Made by a program: the position numbers and the translations under genes
Notes under the pieces: model-generated
What the model saw: the letters and a program-made list of their open reading frames with translations, nothing else
Database searches by the model: none
What the model was told of the DNA's origin: nothing
Assembly: GCF_020164585.1 (NCBI RefSeq)
Contig: NZ_JAIQZF010000004.1
Span: 62,001-126,000 of the forward strand
DNA length: 64,000 bases
Direction: 5' to 3'
From: Psychroflexus curvus
GTDB taxonomy: Bacteria; Bacteroidota; Bacteroidia; Flavobacteriales; Flavobacteriaceae
Shown: positions 29,946 through 59,946 of the stretch, in pieces
Layout: each line of letters opens with the position of its first letter
Numbering within the stretch: position 1 is the first letter of the stretch

Positions 29946-30017
29946 GGTCCGTTCGTCTAGGGGTTAGGACGCCAGGTTTTCATCCTGGTAACAGGGGTTC
30001 GATTCCCCTACGGACTA
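29946..30017 (+). tRNA. tRNA-Glu(UUC), copy 1
   Basis: A 72-nt cloverleaf. The acceptor GGTCCGT pairs with ACGGACT (G-U first pair), the anticodon arm is CCAGG-TTTTCAT-CCTGG with anticodon TTC, and the T arm is AGGGG-TTCGATT-CCCCT. No CCA is encoded. Confidence 0.97.
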
Positions 30018-30052
30018 CAAGATTTTAAGTTCATTAATCAAATTATTAACAC

Positions 30053-30124
30053 GGTCCGTTCGTCTAGGGGTTAGGACGCCAGGTTTTCATCCTGGTAACA
30101 GGGGTTCGATTCCCCTACGGACTA
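30053..30124 (+). tRNA. tRNA-Glu(UUC), copy 2
   Basis: A second 72-nt copy, identical to the first and separated from it by 35 bp. Only 27 bp and no terminator separate it from the rpsT start, so the two tRNAs and rpsT probably share a transcript. Confidence 0.97.
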
Positions 30125-30151
30125 CTATTAAAATTTTTATATTTAAAAGTT

Positions 30152-45778: not shown

Positions 45779-46789
45779 TTATAGAGTAGGCTTATCCACA
45801 AAAGGCCTTTCCTCGCGGTTGGCAATCTCCCAGGCGGTAAAAAATACCAACTTAGCTCGCTTCTCTAGAACATCGTATTCGATTTTTTCAGCAGTATCTG
45901 TAGGTTTATGATAGTCTTCATGAACCCCATTAAAATAGAAAATAATTGGAATATCAAATTTGGCGAAGTTGTAATGATCACTCCTGTAGTAAAATCGGTT
46001 AGGATCATTTTCGTCATTATAAGTGTAATCAAGATCCAGATTGGTGTAGCTAGAGTTAGCTTCCTCAGAAATATTATGGAGTTCTGTACTCAGCTTATCG
46101 CTGCCAATCAGATAAATATAATCAGAATCCTCTTGGTGAGCTTCATCCACTCTACCTATCATATCCATATTCAGGTTAGCAACCGTATTGTCTAACGGAT
46201 AAATAGGATTTTCGGTATAATATTTAGATCCCAAAAGTCCTTTTTCTTCGCCGGTCAAATGTAAAAACACGACAGAACGTTTAGGTCTGTAGCCTTCTGA
46301 AACTGCTTTTTGGAAAGCTTCAGCTATTTCCATCATGGCCATAGAACCGGAACTTCCATCATCTGCGCCATTATAAATTTTACCATTTTTAATGCCTTCA
46401 TGGTCGTAATGCGATGTAATTACTAAGTATTCTTCAGGTAATTCGCTGCCTTCAATAATGGCAATTACGTTTTCACTAGAATTAAACCTACCCTTGAAGA
46501 AAGAAGAATCTATGGTTTGAAAATAAGGCTCATCTTCAGAAGACCCCCCTTGAATATTCAGACTGTTGTAATAATTCTTAAGGTATTGAGCCGCTTTTTT
46601 CTGTCCTTCCTGACCTGTTTCTCTCCCTTCAAATTCATCTGAACTGAAGGTATACAGGTAATCGCTCAATTCTGAAGAGGTAATCGATTGGGAAAATCGT
46701 ATAGGATCCACTTCGGTGACATCTTTCTTTTGGGATTTGCAGCCTACGAGGCTTAACGCTAAAACTAAAGGTAATATTATTTTTTTCAT
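45779..46789 (-). CDS. M28 family zinc peptidase, lipoprotein
   Basis: 336 residues. The signal peptide ends in lipobox LVGC (Cys17). The two-zinc site of M28 is complete: SHYDHEG (His, Asp), NGADDGSSGSMAMMEIAEA (bridging Asp), LTGEEKGLLGS (catalytic Glu pair), NMDMIGR (Asp) and YRSDHYNFAK (His). It is probably an exported aminopeptidase that degrades peptides outside the cytoplasm. It stands alone. Confidence 0.93.
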   Translation of the reverse strand: MKKIILPLVLALSLVGCKSQKKDVTEVDPIRFSQSITSSELSDYLYTFSSDEFEGRETGQEGQKKAAQYLKNYYNSLNIQGGSSEDEPYFQTIDSSFFKGRFNSSENVIAIIEGSELPEEYLVITSHYDHEGIKNGKIYNGADDGSSGSMAMMEIAEAFQKAVSEGYRPKRSVVFLHLTGEEKGLLGSKYYTENPIYPLDNTVANLNMDMIGRVDEAHQEDSDYIYLIGSDKLSTELHNISEEANSSYTNLDLDYTYNDENDPNRFYYRSDHYNFAKFDIPIIFYFNGVHEDYHKPTDTAEKIEYDVLEKRAKLVFFTAWEIANREERPFVDKPTL

Positions 46790-47063
46790 GTATGATTTGT
46801 TTACTGCTAAAATACTAGGAAAACCGCTGACTTTGAAGTATTATCATCAAAAATCTTTATTTTGAATTTGTACATAATTATTTTTATGCCCGGCGATACA
46901 TTTCTTTAAGCTATCAGGTCATTTAAACCTCCAGTCTTGAGGCATGATTTAATCATGATTTCAAATTAATCTATAAGTTTAGCTTTAAAATTTAAAACGC
47001 TATACACCCAGAATTGCTTAAAACAAGGGTCAAAATAATTTTATAAAAACAAGGACGAATAAT
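46790..47063. other. Intergenic region without a recognisable gene
   Basis: AT-rich DNA between the M28 gene and the tRNA-Ser promoter. I see no ORF with a plausible family and no repeat. Confidence 0.5.
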
Positions 47064-47093
47064 TTTGAGAAACCAAAAAGCTTAGTATATTTG
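47064..47093 (+). promoter_or_regulatory. Promoter of the tRNA-Ser locus
   Basis: TTTG (47064-47067) and TATATTTG (47086-47093) with an 18-bp spacer match the Bacteroidota -33/-7 consensus. It should transcribe the tRNA-Ser relic, the tRNA-Ser gene and perhaps the GIY-YIG array when the terminators are read through. Confidence 0.75.
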
Positions 47094-47126
47094 CAACCGC
47101 TAAAGAAATCCATGTAAATGGATTCC

Positions 47127-47170
47127 GGAGAAATGGCAGCCCCGATAGTAATCGGGAGGTCAAACATCCG
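47127..47170 (+). pseudogene. Possible tRNA-Ser relic interrupted by a palindrome
   Basis: GGAGAAATGGCAG (47127-47139) is identical to the first 13 nt of tRNA-Ser. Then comes CCCGAT-AGTA-ATCGGG (47141-47156), a perfect 6-bp hairpin. Then GGTCAAACATCCG (47158-47170) matches 11 of 13 nt of the tRNA-Ser variable arm (47228-47240). The order is that of the tRNA, with the middle replaced by the hairpin. It lies in the tRNA leader, upstream of the intact gene. Confidence 0.55.
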
Positions 47171-47179
47171 AAAAGGACT

Positions 47180-47264
47180 GGAGAAATGGCAGAGTGGTCG
47201 AATGCGGCAGTCTTGAAAACTGTTGAGGGTCACACCTCCGGGGGTTCGAATCCCTCTTTCTCCG
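47180..47264 (+). tRNA. tRNA-Ser(UGA)
   Basis: 85 nt with a long variable arm. The acceptor GGAGAAA pairs with TTTCTCC, the discriminator is G, and the anticodon loop CTTGAAA gives anticodon TGA. No CCA is encoded. Its last 11 nt and following terminator are the seed of the repeat array that follows. Confidence 0.96.
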
Positions 47265-47271
47265 CAAAAGG

Positions 47272-47302
47272 AAAACCCACAACGAAAGTTGTGGGTTTTT
47301 TA
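47272..47302 (+). terminator. tRNA-Ser terminator (first core copy)
   Basis: A perfect 12-bp stem with a GAAA tetraloop followed by a T-run, 7 nt after the tRNA. It is repeated in cores at 47431, 47608, 47981 and 48159. In core 6 the T-run is broken (TTTATTGG). Confidence 0.88.
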
Positions 47303-47683
47303 ATGTCTAATCACGTCAAAAGCAAGGCTTTTGTAAGGGGTTGGACATTTAAAAAACAAAGTAAGCGTTAGCTTGCTTAGGTTTTACATGCTTGTTCAGG
47401 ATACCCTTTCGGGGATCAACGCAGTTAATCCTCTTTCTCCGCAAAAGGAAAACCTACAACGAAAGTTGTGGTTTTTTTAATGTCTAATCACGTCAAAAGC
47501 AAGGCTTTTGTAAGGGGTTGGACATTTAAAAAACAAAGTAAGCGTTAGCTTGCTTAGGTTTTACATGCTTGTTCAGGATACCCTTTCGGGGATCAACGCA
47601 GTTAATACTCTTTCTCCGCAAAAGGAAAACCCGCAACGAAAGTTGTGGGTTTTTTAATACCCTAAATTTCCTATTTTTAGTTT

Positions 47684-47947
47684 ATGAATTGCTTTGTTTA
47701 CATTTTATATTCAAAATCGGTTGATTTATTTTATGTAGGTGCAACCCATGATGTTAATAAAAGACTCCAGAGGCATAATACTGGGTTAGAAAATTTTACT
47801 AAAAAATATATGCCCTGGGAATTGGTATGGTTTACAAAAAAGCCAAACAAAGCTGAAGCTTTCAAGCTTGAAAAAAAATTGAAAAACTTATCCAAAAGTC
47901 GTAAACGGGAGTTTATAAAAAAATATTCGAATGATGACGAAGCCTAG
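47684..47947 (+). CDS. GIY-YIG family nuclease, stand-alone domain
   Basis: 87 residues, just the GIY-YIG fold: FVYILYSKSVDLFYVGATHD (the VYI and YVG forms of GIY and YIG), the Arg-containing helix VNKRLQRHN, and the Glu of AFKLEKKLKNL as expected metal ligand. Such single-domain proteins (UPF0213/YhbQ-like) are presumed DNA endonucleases, but their targets are unknown. The gene replaces a spacer within the tRNA-Ser repeat array and runs in the tRNA direction. It is followed by a hairpin, ACACTGAC-CGAAGC-GTCAGTGT, directly abutting a copy of the tRNA 3' end. Confidence 0.9.
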   Translation: MNCFVYILYSKSVDLFYVGATHDVNKRLQRHNTGLENFTKKYMPWELVWFTKKPNKAEAFKLEKKLKNLSKSRKREFIKKYSNDDEA

Positions 47948-48480
47948 CTTGTCATCACACTGACCGAAGCGTCAGTGTCCCTCTTTCTCCGCAAAAGGAA
48001 AACCCACAACGAAAGTTGTGGGTTTTTTAATGTCTAATCACGTCAAAAGCAAAGCTTTTGTAAGGGGTTGGACATTTAAAAAACAAAGTAAGCGTTAGCT
48101 TGCTTAGGTTTTACATGCTTGTTCAGGATACCCTTTCGGGGGATCAACGCAGTTAATCCTCTTTCTCCGCAAAAGGAAAACCCACAACGAAAGTTGTGGG
48201 TTTTTTAATGTCTAATCACGTCAAAAGCAAGGCTTTTGTAAGGGGTTGGACATTTAAAAAACAAAGTAAGCGTTAGCTTGCTTGGGTTTTATATGCTTGT
48301 ACAGGATAACACTTTTGGGATCAACGCAGTTAATCCTCTTTCTCCGCAAAAGGAAAACCCACAACGAAAGTTGTGGGTTTATTGGTTTCTAAGTTCCTCA
48401 GAAGTAATCTGTTTTAAGGTCATAATGAAGATGCACAGCTTTGAATATAGCTAAATGTTAGTGTTCACATCCTTCATTTC

Positions 48481-50451
48481 TTATTCATTCCACAGATCTG
48501 GTATAAGCTCATAACCAGTAGCACCTAAAGGTTTTTGATTGTAAGGCTGCAATTTCCCGGTATGTACCTCATACACTCGTTTTGCTGTTTTTTTGATGGC
48601 CTCCACCATATGCGGATACGGCCGATCGGTGACATCTACGATGCCACAGTTATAATTTTCGCCATCATAACGTCTTCCGGTTAAGTCCTGATCGGCCCAT
48701 TGAAAATAAGCGACGCCAATTAAGCCAGGATGATTGAACGCCTGCTCTGTATAATATCTATAGGCGACACCCCGCTCTTCTTGATTTTTAACCTGCACCA
48801 AAGCCTGAGCCATCCCTCTATTGACTGTTCCAGAATGATATTCTCCTATAAGCATGGGTAAACCTGTCACTTCACTTATTCTGTCCATGGTTTCTCTGGG
48901 AGGAACCACTTCATAAGCGTTGAAACTAAATACATCGAAAACACCTTTACATATATTTAGGATTTCGTCCTCTGGAACCTCTCCAAAACGTATTCCTAAA
49001 GTGAGGTGATTGGGGTCATATTTTCTTACTGAAGCTTCCACGGTTTGGAGAAATGTTTTAAACGTATCAAAAATAAATGCCTTACGCCTTTCAGGCGTAT
49101 CTCCTTCTGCCAGATAATTCACTAAAGCCTGTTTTATAGGCTTATCCTCATCTTCTGCAAGGATCAAATCACATAATCTGGATTCCTGACCTAACCATGA
49201 GGGTTCATTGCTGGTAAAATAACCTATCAGCCATTTGTTATCCTTGTAAGGGAAAACCGTCTTCTTCACAGCTTCTTCAGTTTTCCTTTGAAAATCAGGA
49301 GCATATACATCGACAAGTCCCATAACTCCTTCATTTATACCAAGTCCGGAAAGTTGCAGCATAAATGGTTTTTGATTCATATCTATAACCTTTTTACTAC
49401 TCCAGTTGGCTATGGTATTAATCCCCCAGTTAGACATTCTGTCTATTATCATTTCTCTGGATTTAGCAGGATAATCCTCTCCAAAGCGGCGATGCAAATT
49501 CCATGTCCCAAAGGATACTGAATTAGGATTTTCCGGATCGTATCCTACACCTTCAGGAGGTAATTTCTTTATGAAATTTGAAGTTTCACGCTGATCCAGT
49601 CTATTCACTTGCCCCCCATTACCTGGCGCTATACAATCTACGCCAAGAGACAAAAATTGATAGCCCTCTGGATCCACAAACCACCATTTGCCGTTTACTT
49701 TTTGTGTTCTAAAAAAACCTGTAGCTTCTACTTTTGCATTCAGGTAGCCACCATATGTTGAATAATTAAAATCTTCCTTTTTACTTAAGTTTGTTTCTTC
49801 AGTTTCCCAGGCTGTTTTTAACTGATCCAAGGATTTAATTTTCTCATCAAAGTCCAAGAGGTTAGATTGACCAAATTCATCGACGACAGGTGTTTCTCCA
49901 AGGTATTCATCACCGGGATCCTCTTTGTGTAAACTTATGGAACGCAACTCAAAGTAGGGGTTTCCAATGGGAGCATGCATTCTGATGCCGATAGAATCCA
50001 CCCCTTTTAGGGGGCCACGCTCACCTCCCAGATTAAACCAGCCGGTATACCGAGGCTGATTCATAGTTGCTGCGATATCATTTGCCGCGTCGGGGAGCTG
50101 CCTGTAAAACCTAAGAGGAATCGCTAGTTTTATCCATCCCCCGGGAGCATAGCTCATGACCCGAAGATCATTATAACCTGAATCTGTCGTGAATCCAATT
50201 TGAAATCGCTGTGGAGTACTCATCATCATTTCAAGCAACACATAATTATAATCACTCCAGTCTGACTCAAGTTCAGGGTTTATATCCCGAAGTGCAAATT
50301 TTTCACCTGATACTGTTTTAGTACTATCGAAATCAACTTTAAAGGTTTTGCTTTCAGATTCATCACATCCTAGAAATGATATGCAAGCCATGGTAAGGAT
50401 AGCCATAGAAGATAAGAGTTTTTTTCTAAAATTGCTTTGAGCTTTATTCAT
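48481..50451 (-). CDS. Putative glycoside hydrolase (GH50-agarase-like TIM barrel), lipoprotein
   Basis: 656 residues. The lipobox is ISFLGC (Cys29). An N-terminal beta-rich carbohydrate-binding-like region (~40-170) precedes a TIM barrel introduced by FFRTQKVNGKWWFVDPEGYQFLSLGVDC, a phrase typical of beta-agarase-like enzymes. Clan GH-A residues are visible: YFTSNEPSW (acid/base Glu after Asn) and MLIGEYHSG (nucleophile Glu). It probably cleaves a marine polysaccharide, but the substrate is not certain. No SusCD pair or other CAZymes are adjacent. Confidence 0.8.
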   Translation of the reverse strand: MNKAQSNFRKKLLSSMAILTMACISFLGCDESESKTFKVDFDSTKTVSGEKFALRDINPELESDWSDYNYVLLEMMMSTPQRFQIGFTTDSGYNDLRVMSYAPGGWIKLAIPLRFYRQLPDAANDIAATMNQPRYTGWFNLGGERGPLKGVDSIGIRMHAPIGNPYFELRSISLHKEDPGDEYLGETPVVDEFGQSNLLDFDEKIKSLDQLKTAWETEETNLSKKEDFNYSTYGGYLNAKVEATGFFRTQKVNGKWWFVDPEGYQFLSLGVDCIAPGNGGQVNRLDQRETSNFIKKLPPEGVGYDPENPNSVSFGTWNLHRRFGEDYPAKSREMIIDRMSNWGINTIANWSSKKVIDMNQKPFMLQLSGLGINEGVMGLVDVYAPDFQRKTEEAVKKTVFPYKDNKWLIGYFTSNEPSWLGQESRLCDLILAEDEDKPIKQALVNYLAEGDTPERRKAFIFDTFKTFLQTVEASVRKYDPNHLTLGIRFGEVPEDEILNICKGVFDVFSFNAYEVVPPRETMDRISEVTGLPMLIGEYHSGTVNRGMAQALVQVKNQEERGVAYRYYTEQAFNHPGLIGVAYFQWADQDLTGRRYDGENYNCGIVDVTDRPYPHMVEAIKKTAKRVYEVHTGKLQPYNQKPLGATGYELIPDLWNE

Positions 50452-50668
50452 AAGTTTATTTTTAATTCTTGATAATTAAGTGTACGCGTTTAAATCACTT
50501 ACAATCAATTCAACAGCTTATTTTAAATTTTCTTTTGCTTTCAATTTTTTATTTAATCCTCGATAATATCTAAAATACTCCCACCTATATTTAAGATTAA
50601 CCAAATCCATTTTTATTGTATTTTAGACGAATAATATGACTTGTAATTTCATACCTTAAATAACTCCT

Positions 50669-50944
50669 ATGCATTATATTCTTTTTTATAAATCTGTTGA
50701 CAATTATATTGAAAAAAGAGCTCCTTTTCGACAAGAACATCTAGAATTATTAAAAACCGCAAATGAGCAAGGTACTTTAGTCATGGCTGGTGCCTTTTCA
50801 GAACCAGCTGATGGTGGGGTTTTTATTTTTAAAACAAATGATCCCAGTGTCGCCGAAAACTTTGCCAAAAACGATCCTTATGTCAAAAACGGATTGATTA
50901 CCGAGTGGAAGATTCGCCCCTGGACTGTGGTGATAGGCGGGTAA
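50669..50944 (+). CDS. YciI family protein
   Basis: 91 residues matching the YciI/ferredoxin-like fold: YILFYKSVDNYIEKRAPFRQEHLELL, then GTLVMAGAFSEPADGGVFIFK and a C-terminal NDPYVKNGLITEWKIRPW. The family includes small putative enzymes with a conserved His-Asp pair; the function is mostly unknown. It stands alone between the GH gene and the convergent serine hydrolase gene. Confidence 0.9.
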   Translation: MHYILFYKSVDNYIEKRAPFRQEHLELLKTANEQGTLVMAGAFSEPADGGVFIFKTNDPSVAENFAKNDPYVKNGLITEWKIRPWTVVIGG

Positions 50945-50956
50945 ATAGTTGATTAA

Positions 50957-52093
50957 TTACTCGACGGCTTTTTGCAACAACCGCATCACATCGTCGATTT
51001 TTGAATTGTCGATCCAGCGGGTGACCACAAGCAAATCGTTTTCTTCATCGATTATGATATAGTTCCCTCCAAATCCTGCAGCAAAGTACACTTCCTCAGA
51101 AACTCCTTCCCAGGCTTCCTGGCTATTGTTCCACCACAAATAGCCATAGTCTGATTTGGCCTGAGAAGATTCCTGGACACTTTTCACCCAGTTTTCTGAG
51201 ATCAGTTGCTTATCCTTCCATTTTCCATTTCTCAGGAATAATAACCCAAATCTAGCATGATCTAAAGAATTGATAAATATGCCACCTCCAAAATGTCCGC
51301 CGCCACTCACAGACTGCATTTGTAAACCGTCTACATTCACGTAAGAATTATGGTATCCCAGCCATCTCCAGGTTGTAGAAGCCCCAATAGGGTCCATGAT
51401 TTCCTCTTTTAAGACTTGTGGTAGTGGTTTTCTCCACACCTGAAGCAGGGCATAAGCCAGGACATTGACCCTTACATCATTGTATTTGTAATGAGTTCCA
51501 GGTTCATACAATTGTCTTGCTCTCCAGTCGTCGATAGTGCCCTCTCTTGGCGGGCGGTCTGCCCAATCGTCAAGTCCAAACTGTTGTCCAGACCAGTCTG
51601 AAGACTGAGTTAATAAATGATCCCAGGTTATCTTTTGATTATGTTCCCCATCAAACGTCCCATCCCAGACATATTTGTGAGTTTTATCGTTTATACTATG
51701 AATTAACTTACGATCTAAAGCCAATCCAGCCACAGTAGATAGATAGCTTTTAGCTACACTGAAGGTCATATCTACTCTGTCGACCTCTCCCCATTCCGCC
51801 ACGATATAACCGTCTTTAATCACCAAGCCAGCTGGGCCGCCTCTTTGTTTGGTTTCTCCGAGAATTTCAAAATTTGGCTCTCTGGAAAAAGCTTCTAGTA
51901 TAGCGATTCTTAAATCTCTATTGACTGAATTTTCATTACCAGAAGCGATAGTCACAGCACTATCTAATAAGACGGGATTCATTTTTAAAGCGGTAGCCGA
52001 TTTTCTTTCCCAGTCTTGACTTGGATAATATTGTCCAAACACGATGTTTGACCAAAAAAACAAAACACAGGTGAGCGTGAATAAAATTTTCAT
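50957..52093 (-). CDS. Serine hydrolase, beta-lactamase class C/CubicO-like
   Basis: 378 residues from ATG 52093, which places a signal peptide (KILFTLTCVLFFWSNIVFGQ) at the start; a start at 52156 would add 21 residues. The catalytic SxxK is in MTFSVAKSYLSTVAG. HYKYNDVRVNVLAYAL lies at the usual YxN position, and GGHFGGGIFINSLDHARFGLL is typical of the family. It is an exported esterase, D-aminopeptidase or beta-lactamase-like enzyme; the substrate cannot be read. Confidence 0.88.
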   Translation of the reverse strand: MKILFTLTCVLFFWSNIVFGQYYPSQDWERKSATALKMNPVLLDSAVTIASGNENSVNRDLRIAILEAFSREPNFEILGETKQRGGPAGLVIKDGYIVAEWGEVDRVDMTFSVAKSYLSTVAGLALDRKLIHSINDKTHKYVWDGTFDGEHNQKITWDHLLTQSSDWSGQQFGLDDWADRPPREGTIDDWRARQLYEPGTHYKYNDVRVNVLAYALLQVWRKPLPQVLKEEIMDPIGASTTWRWLGYHNSYVNVDGLQMQSVSGGGHFGGGIFINSLDHARFGLLFLRNGKWKDKQLISENWVKSVQESSQAKSDYGYLWWNNSQEAWEGVSEEVYFAAGFGGNYIIIDEENDLLVVTRWIDNSKIDDVMRLLQKAVE

Positions 52094-52296
52094 GTTGGAT
52101 ATTTTATGATTTGATAAGTTGTAAATATCCATAAAATCCGAACTACCGCAGAGCAAGTTTAATAATTTTTATATTTCGCTAATAAATGTATTGTAGATTA
52201 GAATCAGGCTAAGTTTAAATGGGTTTTATTTGAGGTAATGGATCCGATAAAAATTATATATTGAAATTTGAAATCTCTTACATTAAAACTGCGTTG

Positions 52297-53445
52297 ATGA
52301 AAAATCAAAACCATCTTTTTAGCCTTCCCGAAAACTTACATTATCTCAACGGTGCTTATATGTCTCCTAATCTAAAAGCAGTTGAGCAGGCTGGAATTGA
52401 GGGCGTCTTAAGAAAATCTGACCCTACCTCTATAAAAGAATCCGATTTCTTTGAGCCGGCTCTGGAGATAAAGTCACTGTTTGGAAAATTAATTAACAGC
52501 CCTGCTTCCCAAAATGCGCTAATTCCCTCTGCCTCTTACGGATTGATTAATGCCCTGCGCAATGTCCCCTTCAGAAGCGGGCAGTATGCCATCATGGTCA
52601 GTGAAGAATTTCCTAGTGATCACCTTGCTTTGAGAAAAATCTGTCAGGACCAAAAGGCTGATCTTAAGGTGTTACCTCCTCCGGAATTTATAAAAGGAAG
52701 GACTTTAAAATGGACCGAAGATATAATCGAAAGCATCACTGAAGAAACTGCCGTTGTGGCGATGTCTTCTATTCATTGGATGCAGGGCCTGAAATTCGAT
52801 TTGAAGGCCATAGGTGAAAAATGCCGGTCAACCCACACGTATTTTATCGTGGATGGCACTCAATCTGTTGGCGCTTTGCCCATGGATGTTCAGGAATTCA
52901 ACATAGATGCATTGATATGCGCTTCTTATAAATGGCTCCTCGGACCCTACTCTTCGGGCTTAGCCTATTATAGCGAAAAATTTAACCAGGGCGAACCCAT
53001 TGAACATTCATGGATGACTCGAAAAGACAGCCATGATTTCGACAAACTCACCAGTTATCCTGAGGACTACGGAAGCGGAGCCATGCGCTATAATGTGGGA
53101 GAGTTTAGCAATTTTATCGCCCTCCCTATGCTGAAAGCTGCCCTGGAACAAATTCTGAAATGGAAGGTGGAAAACATTCAAACCTATTGCTTTGAATTGC
53201 TTGAGCCCTTAAGAGCATTTCAAAAAAGAAAAGGCCTGGAGATGGAAGATGAGATCAACATGAGTTCACATCTGTACGGATTGTTTCTACCTGAAAGCCT
53301 GCTTACCCCAAAACTGAAAAACGACTTTAAAACCAATAACATTCACGTGTCTACCAGGGGTAATTTCATCCGGGTTTCGCCTCATGTTTATAATACCGTC
53401 CCTGATATAGAAGCATTTATAAAGGTTTTGGATACACATTTATGA
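52297..53445 (+). CDS. Class V aminotransferase-fold PLP enzyme
   Basis: 382 residues from ATG 52297 (TTG 52261 would extend by 12). It starts with HYLNGAYMSPNLKAVEQAGI, and the PLP-binding region is VDGTQSVGALPMD followed by ALICASYKWLLGPYSSGL, with the Schiff-base Lys. The family includes cysteine desulfurases, kynureninases and isopenicillin epimerases. The lack of a conserved Cys loop argues against a desulfurase. Reaction and partner are unknown. It is monocistronic. Confidence 0.87.
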   Translation: MKNQNHLFSLPENLHYLNGAYMSPNLKAVEQAGIEGVLRKSDPTSIKESDFFEPALEIKSLFGKLINSPASQNALIPSASYGLINALRNVPFRSGQYAIMVSEEFPSDHLALRKICQDQKADLKVLPPPEFIKGRTLKWTEDIIESITEETAVVAMSSIHWMQGLKFDLKAIGEKCRSTHTYFIVDGTQSVGALPMDVQEFNIDALICASYKWLLGPYSSGLAYYSEKFNQGEPIEHSWMTRKDSHDFDKLTSYPEDYGSGAMRYNVGEFSNFIALPMLKAALEQILKWKVENIQTYCFELLEPLRAFQKRKGLEMEDEINMSSHLYGLFLPESLLTPKLKNDFKTNNIHVSTRGNFIRVSPHVYNTVPDIEAFIKVLDTHL

Positions 53446-53824
53446 ATAAAATTATTGATTGTATTTATGATTACTGAAGAGCAACCTCTTTATATAAATT
53501 ACTAAAAGCCTAAATTTTAGCTCACTCCCAACTCTTCATCACACACTAAAATAAGTTTTCAAAATTTTCAGTAAATCATCAATACAAACTGGATGTTCAG
53601 GTCTACATAAAGTCTTAAGAAATGTATCGCAGAGCATCAAACCAGTTAAAGGCAAAATCAGAATAAAACATAAGAGTAAGAAGATATTAAGTCAATACCG
53701 TTAAGTAGTAAAAAGCAGAGATTAATATCCTCATAAAGTAAGATTAAAAACTGTAGCTTTAACTGAGTTTTCTATAGAACTATTTGATATTCAGAGCTTA
53801 GTTTAAGATATTAAATCCGGACAG
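53446..53824. other. Intergenic region without a recognisable gene
   Basis: 379 bp of AT-rich DNA. I see no convincing ORF, tRNA, hairpin terminator or repeat. It could hold a promoter or an untranslated RNA, but nothing supports it. Confidence 0.5.
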
Positions 53825-54277
53825 ATGCAATTCAAAAAATTGACCAGTGAAAAGCCTTTTGATGTGGCCGATTATGTGCACGACTATTATGCGCTTTATC
53901 CCTATGAAAAGCTCAACCTATACTTGGGTTGCGATAGTCAAAACCGCTTACGGACGACTTATGCCACCACCCTGGTCTTTAATGTTTCAAAAACAGGCTG
54001 TCATGTGATTTATCGCAAGGAAGTGATGCCCTTGATTGCCGATATGTGGACCAGACTCTGGGGAGAGACAGAACGTTCGGTAGAAACTGCGCTTTATCTG
54101 CGCGAGAAGGGTATTGAGATCGACACCATTGATCTGGATTACAATGTGAATCCCAAATTCAAATCCAATACGCTGGTTACAGCTGCGGTGGGTTATGTTG
54201 AATCCTTAGGCTTCAAAGCAAGAATAAAACCCGATCTTCTTCCTGCCGTCTATGCCGCTGATCATATTGTGGGATAA
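53825..54277 (+). CDS. YkuK-like RNase H-fold protein (DUF458)
   Basis: 150 residues. The first strand NLYLGCDSQNRLRTTYATTLVF with an acidic residue after the first beta strand, and the later IDTIDLDYNVNPKFKSNTLVTAAVGYV with Asp residues, match the YkuK (DUF458) family, an RNase H-like fold with unproved nuclease activity. Cytoplasmic. A hairpin (54400-54432) lies in the convergent gap to the response regulator gene. Confidence 0.85.
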   Translation: MQFKKLTSEKPFDVADYVHDYYALYPYEKLNLYLGCDSQNRLRTTYATTLVFNVSKTGCHVIYRKEVMPLIADMWTRLWGETERSVETALYLREKGIEIDTIDLDYNVNPKFKSNTLVTAAVGYVESLGFKARIKPDLLPAVYAADHIVG

Positions 54278-54399
54278 AGAAGAGCTTTACACCAAAAAAA
54301 ATACGGTCTCTTATTTCACTATTTTAAAGAACACTCTTTGATACTAAGACAAACCCCTGAAAAGGGCTTAAAACGACTTGTGTTCTAAATTTTTGGTGA

Positions 54400-54432
54400 C
54401 TTGCCCGCCTGTTCCATTCGGACGGGGGCAAG
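54400..54432. repeat. Long imperfect C/G-rich hairpin in an intergenic gap
   Basis: CTTGCCC (54400-54406) pairs with GGGCAAG (54426-54432), and the stem continues through CC/GG and GTTC/GGAC to a CATTC loop with two bulges. No T-run follows on either strand, so it is not a normal terminator. It resembles a dispersed palindromic repeat. Confidence 0.5.
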
Positions 54433-54475
54433 GCTTACCATTGTTGGTAAATGTTGTTTAAGTTGGTCGATAGAA

Positions 54476-54877
54476 TTAATTAGTGACAAGCTTTGGCAAA
54501 ATACCGTTTAATTGACTTAGATCTATTGGTTTGACTAAATAGTTATTTTTCAATCCATATTTTTCAGCTCTTTGAATATCATCTTCATGATTTGAACTTG
54601 TTAAAATATAAATAGCACCACCCTGTTCTATAGGTATTTGAGTGAATTCATCCAGAAACTTCCACCCATCCCAAACAGGCATATTTAAATCCAAAAATAT
54701 AATTTGGGGCAATTTTTCATTATTCAGAAACATTGCTTTTAGTGAAGTATATGCTTCTTTTCCATTCTTATAAGCCAATGTTTTTTCAACAAATCCGGAA
54801 AGTTCTATATACTTCCTCGTTATAAACAATTGCACTGGATCATCTTCCACAATACACGCTAAATCTATTTTTTTCAT
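54476..54877 (-). CDS. Response regulator, single receiver domain
   Basis: 133 residues, a CheY-like receiver only. The acidic pocket is EDD (11-13), the phospho-acceptor is D63 in FLDLNMPVWDGW, the switch is LTSS, and the Lys is in LVKPID. There is no output domain, so it probably signals by protein contact, like the small regulators paired with PAS kinases. Its start overlaps the kinase stop by 4 bp (ATGA), so the pair is translationally coupled. Confidence 0.94.
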   Translation of the reverse strand: MKKIDLACIVEDDPVQLFITRKYIELSGFVEKTLAYKNGKEAYTSLKAMFLNNEKLPQIIFLDLNMPVWDGWKFLDEFTQIPIEQGGAIYILTSSNHEDDIQRAEKYGLKNNYLVKPIDLSQLNGILPKLVTN

Positions 54878-57159
54878 TTTGGTAAGGTTATTTTAAAAAC
54901 TGTACCCACGTTTACTTCACTTACCACTGCTATTTTGCCACCCATGCTTTCTATTTGGTTTTTAGTTATGAACAATCCTACGCCTCTGGATTCATCGTGA
55001 TCATGAAAGGTTTTGTACAAGCCAAAGAGTTTGTCACCATGTTTTTTTAAGTCTATGCCCTGACCATTATCTTCAAAAGATACACTTACCATGGATTTTT
55101 CCATATTTGCTTGAATCTTCAAATAACTCGCTCTTTCTTCGCTTCTATATTTAATGGCATTTGTAATCATATTCAGGAAAATACTATCAAGATAAGCAGG
55201 AATAGCTTTGACTGACAGATCCTTTTCAACAGTGTTGATGATTTCAATATCGGTCTGTTGTATTTGCATGCTCAGGCTGTCTATATTTTTTTGTAACACC
55301 TCATAAATACCAATTTGGGCAGTGTCGCTTTGCGACAAATTAACTTTTACAATCTCATTTAAATCATTTACCGTTTGCGTCAGGTTCTCGACTCCATTTC
55401 TAAGATGACTGATTAATTCATGCTTCGATACTTCCGGAAATTCCATTTGAAAAAGCTGAATAATTCCGGAAATTCCAGAGCTATGAGACCGCAGGTTGTG
55501 CGAAACAATATGAGCAAAATTGCGAAGTCTTTCATTTTGTTCATTTGTAATGTCGAGCAGCGATTTGATCTCTTTCTCAACTTTTTTCAAATCACTAATA
55601 TCAGTACCTACACCCAAGTATCCTACAATTTCATCATGGTCTTTTATGGTATTGACAGAAAGCAAAACAGGAAAGCTAGTTCCATCTTTACGGATATAAG
55701 TCCATTCTTTTGTATTTGATACACCAATTTTGGTTTCATATACGAAGGTTTCAAACCCCTTTATTTCTTTGTTGTACTTTTTAGATAGTTCTTCACTCTC
55801 TCTTTCCACCTCTTCAGTCAGATGAATAAGTTCCGGATGAGGTTTACCTATAACTTCCTGTGTTTTGTACCCGAGTTGCTTTTCAGCACCAGAGTTGAAC
55901 AAGGTAACTGTACCCTCTTTATCCGTGGCAATAATGGAAACCTGTTTGCTTGCGTCCAGGATAGCTTGCAAGCTGGAGATTGCTTCTTGCAGTTTTCTTT
56001 GTGACTCTTTTTCATTGCTAATGTCTATTATTTGCGAAATAAAATAGAGCACGTTACCCTGCTTATTCTTTACCACAGATACTGCCAATAGGATATGAAC
56101 TATATGTCCGTCTTTATGGAAGTAGCGTTTTTCCATTTGATAATGATCCCTTTTGCCTACCACAAGTTCTTTCAAAAGTCCCAAGTCTGTATCTAAATCA
56201 TCAGGATGTGTCATATCTTGAAAGGTAAGTTCGAATAACTCCTCTTGCGTATACCCAACCATTTCACAGACCTTGGCATTTGCTTTTAGCCATTTTCCAT
56301 TTTCATCCATTAAAGCCATTCCAATGGCAGCGTTTTCAAAATTTCCTCTGAAAGCCTCTTCACTGATACGGAGCTTCTCTTCTCTTAGCTTTCTTTCGGT
56401 AATATCTTTATGAGTACCATACATCATCAAAGGCTTTCCGTCATGTGTCCATTCAAAAACTTTACCACTGTCATAAACCCATACCCAATGACCGTCTTTA
56501 TGCTTCATGCGGGTTTCAAACTTATAGTATTCTGTCTCTTTCTCAAAACAAGCATTGAGTCTGCGCTCGGATTCTTTAAGATCTTCAGGGTGTGCCAATT
56601 TCATCCAGGTCTCAATACTGACAGGAGCGAGTTCTTCCAGGGTATAGCCCACGATTTCTGCCCACCGTTCATTAAAGACGGTTTCACCTGTTTGTACATT
56701 CCATTCCCAGGTGCCCACATTGGTACCTTCGATTACAGATTTAAATCTAATTTCACTCTTCTTTATATTGGTGATATCCTGAAAACTGCCAATGAGTTTA
56801 TCACCGACTTTTTTGCCGGTGGCTCTCACCCATATTAGCCTTTCTTTGGCGGTGATCAATTGACATACTAGGTCGTAAGATTTGCCATCTACACTGCATT
56901 TTGTTATAGCCTCCAAAACTATAGGTCTGTAATCAGGGTGATAAAATTCTATTGCTTTTGCTTTGTTAGGATTAAAATCCTTAGGTACTTCATGGATTTT
57001 ATATACCATATCAGTCCAGGTAATTTTGTCAGACGCAATATCCAATTCCCATATGCCCAATTCATTCGCTTCTTGTATATACTCAAACAACTCATTCTTC
57101 TTATCTAGTTCTTGGTTTAGATGGTTTAATTCATTTTTTGGCATTTCAGAACTTTTCAT
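54874..57159 (-). CDS. Multi-PAS sensor histidine kinase
   Basis: 761 residues, apparently cytoplasmic with no membrane helix. Four PAS/PAC units are visible at about 30-130, 137-258, 264-383 and 390-520, with repeated ends like MKHKDGHWVWVYDSGKV and YIRKDGTSFPVLLSV. The phospho-His is probably H554 in AHIVSHNLRSH, in the HNLRS variant. The HATPase domain has an N box (MITNAIKYRS), SFEDNGQGIDL and a GVGLFITK box. It likely phosphorylates the adjoining receiver. The signal is unknown; PAS domains could bind flavin, haem or small ligands. Confidence 0.93.
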   Translation of the reverse strand: MKSSEMPKNELNHLNQELDKKNELFEYIQEANELGIWELDIASDKITWTDMVYKIHEVPKDFNPNKAKAIEFYHPDYRPIVLEAITKCSVDGKSYDLVCQLITAKERLIWVRATGKKVGDKLIGSFQDITNIKKSEIRFKSVIEGTNVGTWEWNVQTGETVFNERWAEIVGYTLEELAPVSIETWMKLAHPEDLKESERRLNACFEKETEYYKFETRMKHKDGHWVWVYDSGKVFEWTHDGKPLMMYGTHKDITERKLREEKLRISEEAFRGNFENAAIGMALMDENGKWLKANAKVCEMVGYTQEELFELTFQDMTHPDDLDTDLGLLKELVVGKRDHYQMEKRYFHKDGHIVHILLAVSVVKNKQGNVLYFISQIIDISNEKESQRKLQEAISSLQAILDASKQVSIIATDKEGTVTLFNSGAEKQLGYKTQEVIGKPHPELIHLTEEVERESEELSKKYNKEIKGFETFVYETKIGVSNTKEWTYIRKDGTSFPVLLSVNTIKDHDEIVGYLGVGTDISDLKKVEKEIKSLLDITNEQNERLRNFAHIVSHNLRSHSSGISGIIQLFQMEFPEVSKHELISHLRNGVENLTQTVNDLNEIVKVNLSQSDTAQIGIYEVLQKNIDSLSMQIQQTDIEIINTVEKDLSVKAIPAYLDSIFLNMITNAIKYRSEERASYLKIQANMEKSMVSVSFEDNGQGIDLKKHGDKLFGLYKTFHDHDESRGVGLFITKNQIESMGGKIAVVSEVNVGTVFKITLPK

Positions 57160-57455
57160 AAGGTGATTATGTTTTCAAAATGTTGTCCAACGGGCTTATA
57201 TAAGTATTTGTAGAGGGTAAACAGACGCAAGTTTTTTAGATTAACAATTAATACCATCACTAGCATCACTTATCACAATCTTTAATTCTTGAACCAAAGT
57301 TGAAATGATAATAGAAGCTAAAAGTAGAAAGAATTTTTCAGATTAATTAAGTTTAAGTTAGTATTTGTTGAACTCAGTAAATCTTAACTGTAAATATTGT
57401 TCATAAAATAACCTATTACAATAGTATATATTAAATAAATATGATTCGAGGAAAC

Positions 57456-57626
57456 ATGAAACAGCAAGAAGACTCAGAGAAGAAACCGAGACCAACCTAC
57501 GAACAACAGAGGGAAATAAGGACTTATCCACCTTACTGGCAGGGTACACTGAACGAAGCCGTTCAGCCAGGGGAGTCAGTAAAAGAAGTGTACGAGAGAC
57601 TAAAAGACTTCGAGGACATGATATAG
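57456..57626 (+). CDS. Possible small hypothetical protein
   Basis: 56 residues from ATG 57456 (57441 adds 5). A GAGGA stretch lies 4 bp before this ATG, unusual in Bacteroidota. The sequence (QQEDSEKKPRPTYEQQREIR, then TYPPYWQGTLNE and SVKEVYERLKDFEDMI) is charged, with a plausible C-terminal helix and no membrane segment. I recognise no family. It stands alone between the kinase and the tRNA-Asp repeat locus. Confidence 0.45.
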   Translation: MKQQEDSEKKPRPTYEQQREIRTYPPYWQGTLNEAVQPGESVKEVYERLKDFEDMI

Positions 57627-57771
57627 ATATTCCTTTGAACAGAGACTGTTATTTGCTCCTAACATTTTTATATAAAATAATTTAATAATTAAAAAAAGTC
57701 TCCCTTTTTTATTGCAAAAATCATATCTCAATTTAAAGATAGTGCTTGTGGATTTCGAATTTCTTGGAAAT

Positions 57772-57798
57772 AAAAAAGCCCTTCCTGTTGGGAAAGAC
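57772..57798 (-). terminator. Intrinsic terminator in unit 1
   Basis: On the minus strand GTCTTTCC-CAACA-GGAAGGGC forms an 8-bp stem with two wobbles followed by six T. Identical copies lie at 58224-58250 and 58740-58766. Confidence 0.8.
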
Positions 57799-57895
57799 TT
57801 CTAGCGGTTTACTTTTCTAAACCTAAGAATGCTGTTACACATTCACAACACAATCCCCAATGCTTTGGGGATGACAGGCAGGTTTCCAATAAAAA

Positions 57896-58174
57896 TTATT
57901 CATTAGTTTTAAATTTATCAATTTCATTCAATGGTGTTTGGATTAAACTTTGAATCTGAACTTTGCTATATTTCTTCAACTTTCGTTCACGTATTAAAGC
58001 TTGTTTTTTCTCTTGAAATGATTGGAGAAAAACCAAAACCCACGGCCCTTTGTTCCCTGTGAATCGACCTAAATTTTCATTGTGCTCTTTAAGTCTTTCT
58101 AAGGGTCGAGTAGAAAAACCCTTATAGTAAATATCATTTTCAAATGAATAAATGATGTAAACAAAGTAAAACAT
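57896..58174 (-). CDS. GIY-YIG family nuclease, copy 2 of a tandem pair
   Basis: 92 residues: FVYIIYSFENDIYYKGFSTRP (VYI and YKG forms of the GIY and YIG motifs), LERLKEHN with the motif Arg, and RERKLKKYSK with the expected metal-binding Glu. The protein is identical to that at 58412-58690 and only distantly similar to the one at 47684. It runs in the direction of the tRNA-Asp gene. YKG instead of YxG with aromatic neighbours is still compatible with the fold. The target is unknown. Confidence 0.9.
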   Translation of the reverse strand: MFYFVYIIYSFENDIYYKGFSTRPLERLKEHNENLGRFTGNKGPWVLVFLQSFQEKKQALIRERKLKKYSKVQIQSLIQTPLNEIDKFKTNE

Positions 58175-58223
58175 GTCTTTTTAAAATATCTAAATTTAAA
58201 AAGATTTCGAATTTCTTGGAAAT

Positions 58224-58250
58224 AAAAAAGCCCTTCCTGTTGGGAAAGAC
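58224..58250 (-). terminator. Intrinsic terminator in unit 2
   Basis: Same 8-bp stem and T-run as in unit 1, following the first GIY-YIG gene in transcription order. Confidence 0.8.
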
Positions 58251-58306
58251 TTCTAGCGGTTTATTTTTCTAAACCTAAGAATGCTTTTACACATTCACAA
58301 CACAAT

Positions 58307-58399
58307 CCCCAATGCTTTGGGGACGGTCTGGAACCCCAAAGGATTGGGGTCAAGCCTGACTCGAACTCGTCCCCAATGCTTTGGGGATGACAGGCAGGT
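58307..58399 (-). pseudogene. tRNA-Asp relic with arms separated by palindromes
   Basis: In order along the plus strand: palindrome CCCCAATGCTTTGGGG (58307-58322), CGGTCTGGA (324-332, tRNA acceptor 3' side), palindrome ACCCCAA-AGGA-TTGGGGT (333-350), GACTCGAACTCG (358-369, T arm), palindrome CCCCAATGCTTTGGGG (371-386) and TGACAGGCAGGT (388-399, anticodon region). The three tRNA pieces match the intact gene exactly and keep its order and strand. Confidence 0.75.
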
Positions 58400-58411
58400 T
58401 TCCAATAAAAA

Positions 58412-58690
58412 CTATTCATTAGTTTTAAATTTATCAATTTCATTCAATGGTGTTTGGATTAAACTTTGAATCTGAACTTTGCTATATTTCTTCAACTTTC
58501 GTTCACGTATTAAAGCTTGTTTTTTCTCTTGAAATGATTGGAGAAAAACCAAAACCCACGGCCCTTTGTTCCCTGTGAATCGACCTAAATTTTCATTGTG
58601 CTCTTTAAGTCTTTCTAAGGGTCGAGTAGAAAAACCCTTATAGTAAATATCATTTTCAAATGAATAAATGATGTAAACAAAGTAAAACAT
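58412..58690 (-). CDS. GIY-YIG family nuclease, copy 1 of a tandem pair
   Basis: 92 residues, identical in protein sequence to the downstream copy at 57896-58174. It has the VYI...YKG motif pair, the Arg in LERLKEH and the Glu in RERKL. It is the copy closest to tRNA-Asp, with a repeat unit and terminator between. Conservation of both proteins while the flanks carry substitutions suggests recent duplication or selection. Transcription from the tRNA promoter with read-through is plausible (inference). Confidence 0.9.
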   Translation of the reverse strand: MFYFVYIIYSFENDIYYKGFSTRPLERLKEHNENLGRFTGNKGPWVLVFLQSFQEKKQALIRERKLKKYSKVQIQSLIQTPLNEIDKFKTNE

Positions 58691-58718
58691 GTCTTTTTAA
58701 AATATCTAAATTTAAAAA

Positions 58719-58820
58719 GATTTCGAATTTCTTGGAAATAAAAAAGCCCTTCCTGTTGGGAAAGACTTCTAGCGGTTTACTTTTCTAAACCTAAGAATGC
58801 TGTTACACATTCACAACACA
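58719..58820 (-). repeat. tRNA-Asp locus, partial unit 3 next to the intact tRNA
   Basis: 102 bp matching the first part of units 1 and 2, including the terminator at 58740-58766 and the stretch ending in ACACATTCACAACACAA. It is the natural downstream flank of the tRNA gene and probably the template of the other two copies. Confidence 0.85.
58740..58766 (-). terminator. Terminator downstream of tRNA-Asp
   Basis: 8-bp stem GTCTTTCC/GGAAGGGC with loop CAACA and six T on the minus strand. A further perfect hairpin, AATTTCCA-ATCTCG-TGGAAATT (58833-58854), lies between it and the tRNA. Confidence 0.8.
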
Positions 58821-58858
58821 ACCTCTTAATAAAATTTCCAATCTCGTGGAAATTAAAG

Positions 58859-58932
58859 CGGTCTGGACGAGACTCGAACTCGCGACCCCCTGCGTGACAG
58901 GCAGGTATTCTAACCAACTGAACTACCAGACC
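58859..58932 (-). tRNA. tRNA-Asp(GUC)
   Basis: 74 nt on the minus strand. The acceptor GGTCTGG pairs with CCAGACC, the discriminator is G, the anticodon arm CCTGC-CTGTCAC-GCAGG gives anticodon GTC, and the T arm is GCGAG-TTCGAGT-CTCGT. No CCA is encoded. It is the source of the fragments at 58307-58399 and 57872-57883. Confidence 0.97.
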
Positions 58933-58950
58933 GTTGCTTAATTGCGAGTG

Positions 58951-58981
58951 CAAATATAAGCCCAATTTTTAATTACACAAA
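58951..58981 (-). promoter_or_regulatory. Promoter of the tRNA-Asp locus
   Basis: On the minus strand TTTG (58981-58978) and TATATTTG (58958-58951) are separated by 19 bp, an exact fit to the Bacteroidota consensus. Transcription would start about 10 bases before the tRNA. Confidence 0.8.
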
Positions 58982-59016
58982 CATGTTTGATGAAAATAAT
59001 TCAACAAAAAAAGACT

Positions 59017-59946
59017 TTAAGACTTTAGGTTCTGTTTTTCAACTAAGTAAGTCGATAATATTTTTTCAAAATTAGTTCGAATATCTGCTTCGACGTATCT
59101 TATCCTGTATTTAGCACAGGTCAGCTTTACTTCCCGGATGAATTCTGCCATCTTTTCAACGTATTCTTTCTGAATCTGATGCGTATGTAAGTCGATTTTG
59201 GCTCCAGTCTCTAGATCAAAAAATCGCTTTGGTGTTTCGTCGAATTTGAAATGCACCTCTGTTTGATGATCTAAGGTGTGAAATAAGACCACCTGATGCT
59301 TATTGTACTTGAGATGTCTCAGAGCTTCAAACAAGTCGGCCCGTGGCAAATCAGGCTGCAGTAAATCGGTAAAAAGAAAAATAAGAGAACGGCGTTTCAG
59401 CTTTTCAGCGATTTCATGTAAAAACTGATACGTATTGGTTTTTGAACTCTGCTGCGGCGTATTGATGCACTTTTCAAGTTCACTGTAAATCATATTATAA
59501 TGCAAGCCACTCCCCTTTTCTGTAGCCTGAAACCTTAACTCTTCATCATAGACAGATAATCCCACAGCATCTCGCTGTTTGTTGAGCAGCTGCATAATAG
59601 CCGCTATGGAAAGGGCTGAGAAACTCAATTTGTCCAAATTGGCTAACGATGGTGACTTAACTTCAGGATAATACATAGAAGCCGATTGGTCTAAGATAAA
59701 ATGACACCTCAAGTTGGTCTCCTCCTCAAATTTTTTGGTGTAAAGTTTGTCCGTTTTAGCATAGAGCTTCCAGTCAATATGCCTGGTGCTTTCTCCTGTA
59801 TTGTATAGCTTATGCTCGGCAAATTCAGCAGAATAGCCATGAAATGGGCTTTTATGTATTCCAGATATAAACCCTTCTACTACCTGTGAAGCTAGTAAAG
59901 GGAGATTGGTCAATTTAGAATCTCGAAGTACAGTTTTAATGTCCAT
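59017..59946 (-). CDS. DUF58 domain protein (vWA-like)
   Basis: 309 residues from ATG 59946 (59955 adds 3). The DUF58 core is visible: GYSAEFAEHKLYNTGESTRHIDWKLYAKTDKLYTKKFEEE, followed by a MIDAS-like HFILDQSASM. Such proteins usually accompany MoxR-type AAA ATPases and Bat proteins in a metal-dependent chaperone-like complex, but no moxR gene is in this window. It is soluble with no membrane helix. Function is uncertain. Confidence 0.9.
   Translation of the reverse strand: MDIKTVLRDSKLTNLPLLASQVVEGFISGIHKSPFHGYSAEFAEHKLYNTGESTRHIDWKLYAKTDKLYTKKFEEETNLRCHFILDQSASMYYPEVKSPSLANLDKLSFSALSIAAIMQLLNKQRDAVGLSVYDEELRFQATEKGSGLHYNMIYSELEKCINTPQQSSKTNTYQFLHEIAEKLKRRSLIFLFTDLLQPDLPRADLFEALRHLKYNKHQVVLFHTLDHQTEVHFKFDETPKRFFDLETGAKIDLHTHQIQKEYVEKMAEFIREVKLTCAKYRIRYVEADIRTNFEKILSTYLVEKQNLKS

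Follow-up and report, generated by a model that had tools for sequence, protein, structure and literature searches.

Putative homing-like GIY-YIG nuclease cassettes at tRNA genes of Psychroflexus curvus and other bacteria

The stretch of DNA analysed here, referred to as the window, comprises 64,000 nucleotides (nt) of the Psychroflexus curvus genome (contig NZ_JAIQZF010000004.1, positions 62,001–126,000). Downstream of its tRNA-Ser and tRNA-Asp genes, and in each case on the strand of the tRNA, lie tandem units that comprise terminator-like hairpins, short GIY-YIG nuclease genes and palindrome-bearing relics of the tRNA 3' end. The question raised by both loci is whether such cassettes are mobile, and what ties a small nuclease gene to a tRNA gene. 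The cassette unit, as found here and in other genomes, mostly measures 0.3–0.55 kb and consists of a one-domain GIY-YIG gene (mostly 82–103 amino acids, aa) together with a copy of part of the tRNA gene and, in many cases, a GC-rich hairpin. We consider it fairly probable that these cassettes are homing-like selfish mobile elements, which use tRNA genes as sites and rebuild the tRNA that they occupy. The description of the cassettes is secure, and the homing mechanism, as judged from sequence, is likely.

Cassettes at tRNA-Ser and tRNA-Asp in the window

The intact tRNA-Ser(tga) gene was found on the forward strand at 47180–47265 by tRNA prediction and Rfam. A promoter-like box TATATTTG, which we take to be the -7 promoter box of Bacteroidetes, was recognised from the sequence at 47086–47093 on the same strand, 86 nt ahead of the tRNA and 33 nt ahead of a probable tRNA-Ser 5' relic (ggagaaatggcag ... 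ggtc; 47127–47161, forward strand) that contains a hairpin (47141–47156) and from which the nuclease gene is gone. The region downstream of the tRNA carries a 252-nt direct repeat in four overlapping copies (start-to-start distances of 177, 550 and 178 nt), each with a tRNA 3' end and a terminator-like hairpin. The 3'-end relics were mapped on the forward strand by sequence and repeat comparison at 47430–47442, 47607–47619, 48158–48170 and 48335–48347. The terminator-like hairpin that follows the tRNA itself (47272–47299, forward strand) recurs at 47626–47653, 47999–48026, 48177–48204 and 48354–48380, with a shorter one at 47454–47471; two of the six unit hairpins were listed by a generic terminator scan and the remaining ones were seen as inverted repeats. 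The sole GIY-YIG open reading frame (ORF) of this locus falls in the 550-nt spacing (47684–47947, forward strand; 87 aa; PF01541, 4.2e-17), and 3' of it a hairpin (47957–47978) and then another tRNA-Ser 3'-end relic (47979–47992) together span 47957–47992 on the same strand.

The tRNA-Asp locus lies on the reverse strand, where the intact tRNA-Asp(gtc) gene (58858–58932; tRNA prediction and Rfam) is preceded at a distance of 18 nt by the same TATATTTG box (58951–58958; sequence). Its two units of 516 nt contain one GIY-YIG ORF of 92 aa and one tRNA relic each, and the nuclease genes (copy 1 at 58412–58690 and copy 2 at 57896–58174) encode identical proteins (PF01541, 1.2e-14 for both). One relic extends from the anticodon loop onward (58306–58398) and has hairpins at 58370–58387, 58333–58350 and 58306–58323, and the other has collapsed to CCTGCCTGTCA plus one hairpin (57854–57882). 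The terminator-like site at 58742–58770 has identical copies at 58226–58254 and 57774–57802. All three window proteins scored 54.8–62.6 bits against a PF01541 cut-off of 22.6 bits, and nine palindromes were counted in the window, against 0–5 in ten shuffles; four of the nine are in the Asp relics. The initial annotation had described both loci by an intact tRNA with a promoter, repeated tRNA pieces, one terminator per unit, a small GIY-YIG gene on the tRNA strand and tRNA relics interrupted by palindromes, and each of these features was recovered, the last one in three relics. Elsewhere in the window, two tRNA-Glu(ttc) genes lie 34 bp apart at 29946–30125 with no GIY-YIG match nearby.

Association of the cassettes with tRNA genes

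The initial annotation had proposed to count stand-alone GIY-YIG genes near tRNAs against chance, with a lack of enrichment as grounds for refutation, and a strong excess was found by a Pfam PF01541 search of 21 genomes. This search returned 136 matches, of which 37 in frames of at least 400 aa were dropped and 99 were kept, in 77 files and 79 loci. An intact tRNA gene was found within 500 bp at 32 of these 79 loci and was on the same strand in all 32. The density of tRNA genes gives a chance of ~0.6% per locus, and chance was rejected as the cause of the proximity with ~0.5 loci expected and 32 observed, the formal enrichment probability being only a guide because the relatives are not independent. 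In a tree of 84 proteins, the tRNA-adjacent ones were placed in one group with support of 91/89 and with sub-groups that include Asp, Asn, Phe, Leu, Arg and Met. The class labels of the 79 loci were typed by hand from this tree and 11 short or odd loci were left unplaced; on these labels, an intact tRNA within 500 bp was present at 26 of 37 loci of the clade, at 6 of the 11 unplaced loci and at none of the 31 loci of other clades, where the nearest one was 550 bp away on the opposite strand. The tRNA-less clade loci are 11 in number. Five of them lie inside or beside protein genes (L113, L106, L114, L122 and L100), two are arrays with tRNA relics (L056 and L140) and four are at contig ends with tRNA pieces in their flanks.

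The spread of the clade was followed with a profile of 24 of its members (A1), which was searched in the 296 genomes of a phylum sample. At E ≤ 0.001 the profile matched in 199 genomes, and a clade-level match (best E ≤ 1e-20) was found in 114. The clade proteins that are whole enough to score mostly reach at least 75 bits with A1; we counted 114 and not 199 genomes because class-B proteins also score, up to 63 bits, though none of the 35 scored came to E ≤ 1e-20. Among 29 top-scoring loci taken one each from 29 other genomes, 27 had a tRNA in the locus, on the same strand within 500 bp in 25, and the other two contained tRNA pieces. When named genomes were searched with the Arg-type protein, a same-strand tRNA lay within 1 kb of 78, and within 300 bp of 76, of the 80 best of 127 relatives, mostly from Flavobacteriia; the match overlapped the tRNA in 39 of the 80, and the two loci without a tRNA have cut tRNA genes. 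Outside Bacteroidota, five genomes (Scalindua, a RIFCSP Planctomycete, Peregrinibacteria, Gottesmanbacteria and Neomarinimicrobiota) gave 30 matches, and 13 of the 20 examined had a same-strand tRNA within 500 bp. The Peregrinibacteria genome (G319, 1.1 Mb) carries a heavy load of twelve clade-profile matches. The counts made with the profile or with search peptides lean to tRNA sites, since most of the proteins behind the profile are tRNA-adjacent and one peptide of the six used extends into the tRNA; the Pfam-based count of 32 in 79 is free of this lean.

The genome of the window contains 25 GIY-YIG matches and 34 tRNA matches, and further cassettes were found in it. A tRNA-Met on contig C35 has a cassette, and on C23 three units, one of them broken, lie 5' of tRNA-Arg(acg). 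In L058 (7105–7359) the last nuclease ORF runs into tRNA-Arg, which begins at 7340, and its stop codon is inside the tRNA gene, so that tRNA sequence encodes the protein tail. An array on C34 (L056; C34:6928–9823) contains about eight tandem GIY-YIG units with a period of 364 nt, 3' of a tRNA-Met 3' half that has no 5' half. Because an intact tRNA-Met of the same sequence is present at C31:69483, where the genome search found no GIY-YIG match nearby, the possibility that this orphan array marks a lost initiator tRNA was rejected. The same genome has a second group of stand-alone GIY-YIG genes (L057 and L060–L062; C1:3584, C12:93798, C23:426937 and C31:267342/271966/273876), none of which has a tRNA within 500 bp. 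Several of them are in intergenic DNA rich in repeated, partly palindromic sequence, and between two GIY-YIG copies at ~271300–273800 of C31 (L057) an IS3-like transposase remnant and a MazEF-like pair were named by eye.

Layouts, relics and hairpins

The cassettes were found in two layouts. In the 3' layout, the intact tRNA is followed by a terminator, the nuclease gene, a tRNA 3' relic that often has a hairpin in its T-loop, and a terminator. In the 5' layout, the nuclease gene lies between a 5' relic and the intact tRNA, and the series that starts on the promoter side consists of a copy of the tRNA 5' part, a hairpin that is in many cases at the edge of the D-loop, some further tRNA bases, the nuclease ORF and the intact tRNA. 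The initial annotation had called the cassettes tRNA 3'-end-associated, which holds for the 3' layout and is too narrow for the other. A same-strand tRNA was within 500 bp of 143 matches, and the nuclease was scored as 5' of the tRNA in 86 of them and as 3' in 57; three of the 86 belong to the 3' layout, since the tRNAs that ARAGORN named 'SeC' (L111 and L116) and 'Ser' (L282) proved to be relics. At complete sites one tRNA is intact and another tRNA part is a relic, and the end of the tRNA gene is duplicated around the nuclease gene, as it is around mobile endonuclease ORFs (mORFs). The acceptor strand of the relic equals the intact one in 76 of 103 cases, and in 26 of the 27 others the better pairing is that of the intact tRNA; the differences fit decay of the relic. 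The idea that the cassette brings in a foreign tRNA half was left unsupported, with the limit that some of the weaker relic matches may be chance.

The inserts in the relics are commonly hairpins. A perfect stem of at least six was present in 69% of 89 relic inserts and in 10% of control pieces. In the 5' layout, the hairpin CCCGCCCG...CGGGCGGG and its variants were found 73 times in 61 loci; they recur in several phyla, and the tRNAs concerned include Arg, Ala, Val and Ile. In 80 loci, hairpins of this type numbered 70 (0.86 per kb) at up to 400 bp from the nuclease and two (0.006 per kb) elsewhere, by a pattern that was picked after it had been seen. Hairpins of 31–34 nt are near equal in their orientations (13 and 12), and the hairpin sequence of three loci is the exact reverse complement of that in three others. 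The latter comparison includes L275 and L276, which lie 5' of tRNA-Val in two Planctomycetes and whose hairpins look as if flipped. An RNA element would probably keep one orientation and this hairpin has both, from which we infer that the hairpin acts as DNA.

These properties also bear on an alternative that we regard as unlikely, in which mobility resides in the hairpin and the GIY-YIG protein serves as its processing enzyme, in a REP/RAYT-like manner; hairpins would then enter D- and T-loops and take the nuclease gene with them. The concentration of hairpins near the nuclease and their two orientations agree with it, as does the location of the inserts, which is the D-loop in 30 of 57 cases in the 5' layout and the T-loop in 15 of 32 in the 3' layout. 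However, the hairpin is nearly absent away from the cassettes in the same 80 loci, and free hairpin movement was therefore not seen in them; relatives in epimerase and 23S-IVP genes (two pairs) show terminal inverted repeats instead, and GIY-YIG enzymes are hydrolytic. Both REP/RAYT and the GC clusters of yeast mitochondria resemble the cassettes in having short GC-rich palindromes, with a small enzyme gene in REP and with mobility in the GC clusters (PMC4478555). In REP/RAYT the enzyme is a Y1 transposase, whereas here it is a GIY-YIG protein and the palindromes are within tRNA relics.

Movement, kinship and meaning

The mobility of the cassettes was indicated by comparison of the same sites in relatives. 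Of 12 congeners, 2 have a cassette at the tRNA-Asp site, which is decayed in one of them, and in 10 this site is empty; its flanking DNA is common to five other congeners, the decayed one included, at 77–86% identity. At the tRNA-Ser site, the nuclease was found in 1 of 10, two more had one non-coding unit and one has just 90 nt downstream. Such presence and absence at one site in close relatives is among the marks of a free-standing homing endonuclease. In a genome of another family (G014), the cassettes at two tRNA-Val paralogs are identical at 438 of 447 nt (98%), and the 300-nt flanks upstream of these tRNAs match at 183 positions, against 164–176 in shuffles. Thus, of the homing-like cassette proposed by the initial annotation, the mobility is supported by occupied and empty sites and by the near-identical cassettes of the tRNA-Val paralogs, and homing itself would be the interpretation that the sequences favour.

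The nuclease lineages tend to follow tRNA identity, and a tie of each lineage to its target site is a further mark of free-standing homing endonucleases. In a tree of 150 proteins, 48 changes of the tRNA label were counted against 110 in shuffles, and 0 of 200 shuffles were as low, in a tree with few columns and unsettled bootstrap whose clustering is helped by near copies and vertical descent. The labels on this tree were set by hand for L056, L141, L134, L149, L140, L200, L292 and L255, for SeC (to Val) and for the protein-gene rows. The median ratio of nonsynonymous to synonymous substitution rates (dN/dS) was 0.146 over 268 overlapping pairs, 62 of which had dS < 1, and the nuclease protein is under purifying selection. 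Some copies of the nuclease are truncated or contain stops. A cycle of gain, decay and loss is known for homing genes, and the broken cassette copies resemble it.

Relatives were also found in protein genes. An epimerase gene (PF01370; GAGF/IGSN) has the element at one and the same point in G004 and G012 and the gene start is duplicated downstream, which is the same rebuilding logic outside tRNA. In G001 and G003 the element is inside a 23S-IVP-type gene (PF05635). The protein-gene sub-clade (L113:2481–2690 reversed, L106:2534–2743, L114 and L100:2946–3155) has terminal inverted repeats, for example ACCTGTGAAATA...TATTTCACAGGT.

In a 24-row alignment of the enzyme, Y6, G19, R27 and H31 were invariant and Y17 and E63 were present in at least 90%; these residues are presumably catalytic, by analogy with I-TevI. 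The nuclease is a single domain, and the model of the Ser-locus protein had a mean predicted local distance difference test (pLDDT) score of 84.7. The closest solved proteins were UPF0213 (1zg2, 3e-15) and then SLX1 (4e-06), with I-TevI weaker, and Foldseek agreed on the kinship with UPF0213 and SLX1 (5.8e-05 and 2.3e-03). SLX1 is a structure-specific nuclease that acts on branched DNA, and hairpin or cruciform substrates would fit this kinship. A phage origin of the cassettes was rejected, since the Ser-locus protein had no match in 50,697 phage records and the Arg-type protein none in viral contigs. The NCBIfam intron-endonuclease matches of two proteins (17.5 and 16.5 bits) were far under the 56-bit cut-off. 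Among PHROG families, the homing ones match SegB, and of four cassette proteins the Ser-locus one matches phrog_16880 'endonuclease' (8.1e-05).

The purifying selection and the proximity to UPF0213 and SLX1 would also be expected of a host or defence nuclease that is parked at tRNAs, is kept for a benefit such as repair, anti-phage action or tRNA quality, and has been moved by ordinary recombination. This explanation is improbable, since the same tRNA site is empty in most of the congeners examined, some copies are truncated or carry stops, lineages tend to stay with one tRNA, and relics and hairpins are left unexplained. Still less probable is a nuclease that acts on RNA and processes or cuts the tRNA transcript. 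The shared strand of nuclease and tRNA, and the overlap of the two in nearly half of the best 80 of 127 named-genome relatives, would suit it; yet hairpins in either orientation would fit DNA better, tRNA genes are normal at empty sites, and protein genes are the sites of some relatives. Islands driven by an integrase likewise use tRNA 3' ends, and remnants of such islands are scarcely credible as the source. Although the 3' layout duplicates tRNA 3' ends and tRNA-Ser may host an ordinary island in two relatives, no integrase family was found among ten proteins scanned near the window loci (nine of ordinary families and one without a family), the units are tandem and of only ~0.2–0.55 kb, and in the 5' layout it is the tRNA 5' end, with a hairpin in the D-loop, that is duplicated, which attachment sites are not known to show. 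The two relatives are L179 and L186, where the repeat gttaccctat... lies 3' of tRNA-Ser and, in L186, a sequence that by eye resembles the start of an integrase gene is present.

Among known systems, the phage nuclease SegB is a partial precedent. PMC13096335 describes SegB as a GIY-YIG homing endonuclease whose homologs co-localise with phage tRNAs, attributes to it a tandem tRNA-Tyr amplification with shortened segB in T6, and mentions that the 5' end of the tRNA and the 3' end of segB share microhomology; the segB insertion site is given as tRNA-Arg/tRNA-Ile in PMC2988022. In T4, segB is like the cassettes a GIY-YIG gene on the same strand beside tRNAs, between tRNA-Ile and tRNA-Arg, and ends 5 nt before tRNA-Arg. 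Unlike the cassettes, it is phage-borne and not chromosomal, its flanks contained no tRNA fragment of at least 7 nt in two comparisons, and its product has 221 aa, of which hhalign to the cassette profile aligned the first 22 residues alone (probability 17.9, E 0.0013), which does not place the cassettes in the SegB family. The initial annotation had held that such a cassette would, to its knowledge, be new. This has to be narrowed, as SegB was already reported beside tRNA genes and acting in the tRNA region (PMC13096335 and PMC2988022). For bacterial chromosomes, the top matches of a literature search that covered few subscription papers and preprints included no report of cassettes of this kind.

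In logic, the mORFs of fungal mitochondria match the cassettes most closely. In Allomyces atp6 and in Glomus atp6, atp9, cox2 and nad3 these supply the gene with a new end, and its former end is displaced or duplicated; as in the cassettes, the endonuclease gene separates the rebuilt gene from that former end (PMC3630166). The differences are that the targets are mitochondrial protein genes, that the enzyme is a LAGLIDADG one in Glomus atp6, and that the new end has diverged, where the acceptor strands of relic and intact tRNA are identical in 76 of 103 cases in the cassettes. The cassettes also differ from group I introns in that they keep an uninterrupted tRNA, and Rfam found tRNAs only, and no intron RNA, in 46500–59500 of the window and in 16 locus files of the same genome. 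Group I introns with homing endonucleases do occur in bacterial tRNA genes and are a case of a selfish endonuclease gene in a tRNA gene.

Several observations weigh against the reading of the cassettes as homing-like selfish elements. No intact tRNA was within 500 bp at 47 of the 79 loci (11 of the clade, 31 of other clades and 5 unplaced), and of the 20 loci outside Bacteroidota, six had no tRNA and one had its nearest tRNA on the opposite strand. About half of the inserts are outside the D-loop (27 of 57) or outside the T-loop (17 of 32), and the relics fit simple decay and show no foreign tRNA half. The nuclease has no added DNA-binding domain and is nearer to UPF0213 and SLX1 than to I-TevI. 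The tie between lineage and tRNA could also reflect long vertical descent at one site, and the intact tRNA, although it seems not to be cut, retains the sequence that the nuclease would recognise.

If the cassettes are homing-like as we favour, the nuclease would nick or cut a copy of its tRNA gene that lacks the cassette, possibly when this DNA forms a hairpin or cruciform, and repair would copy the cassette into the cut gene. The tRNA part carried by the cassette would then rebuild the tRNA, and recombination between tRNA copies could yield the tandem arrays. Where the nuclease lies 5' of the tRNA, transcription of the tRNA seems to come from read-through of the nuclease gene, and some deletions would therefore also cost the tRNA; such loss upon deletion of the cassette would favour its persistence. 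More tentatively, the cassettes may form a separate class of bacterial mobile element, in which a one-domain SLX1-like nuclease has DNA hairpins or cruciforms as substrates, the tRNA loop where it acted is marked by a hairpin of either orientation, and the tRNA is taken over by rebuilding; we hold this as a possibility that is rather doubtful at present.

The tRNA genes are known as landing sites of large islands, and here a gene of ~250–310 bp appears to manage alone with the tRNA kept intact. If the cassettes form such a separate class, tRNA genes would be a main habitat of sub-kilobase selfish DNA, given clade-level matches in at least 114 of the 296 phylum genomes and members in other phyla. 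The cassettes may explain many annotations of orphan small GIY-YIG proteins. Their nucleases are very small candidates for site-directed use, the tRNA targets form a natural series for tests of specificity, and assays are available from the work on phage SegB. They would also offer a testable route by which tRNA genes duplicate, recombine and gain partial copies.

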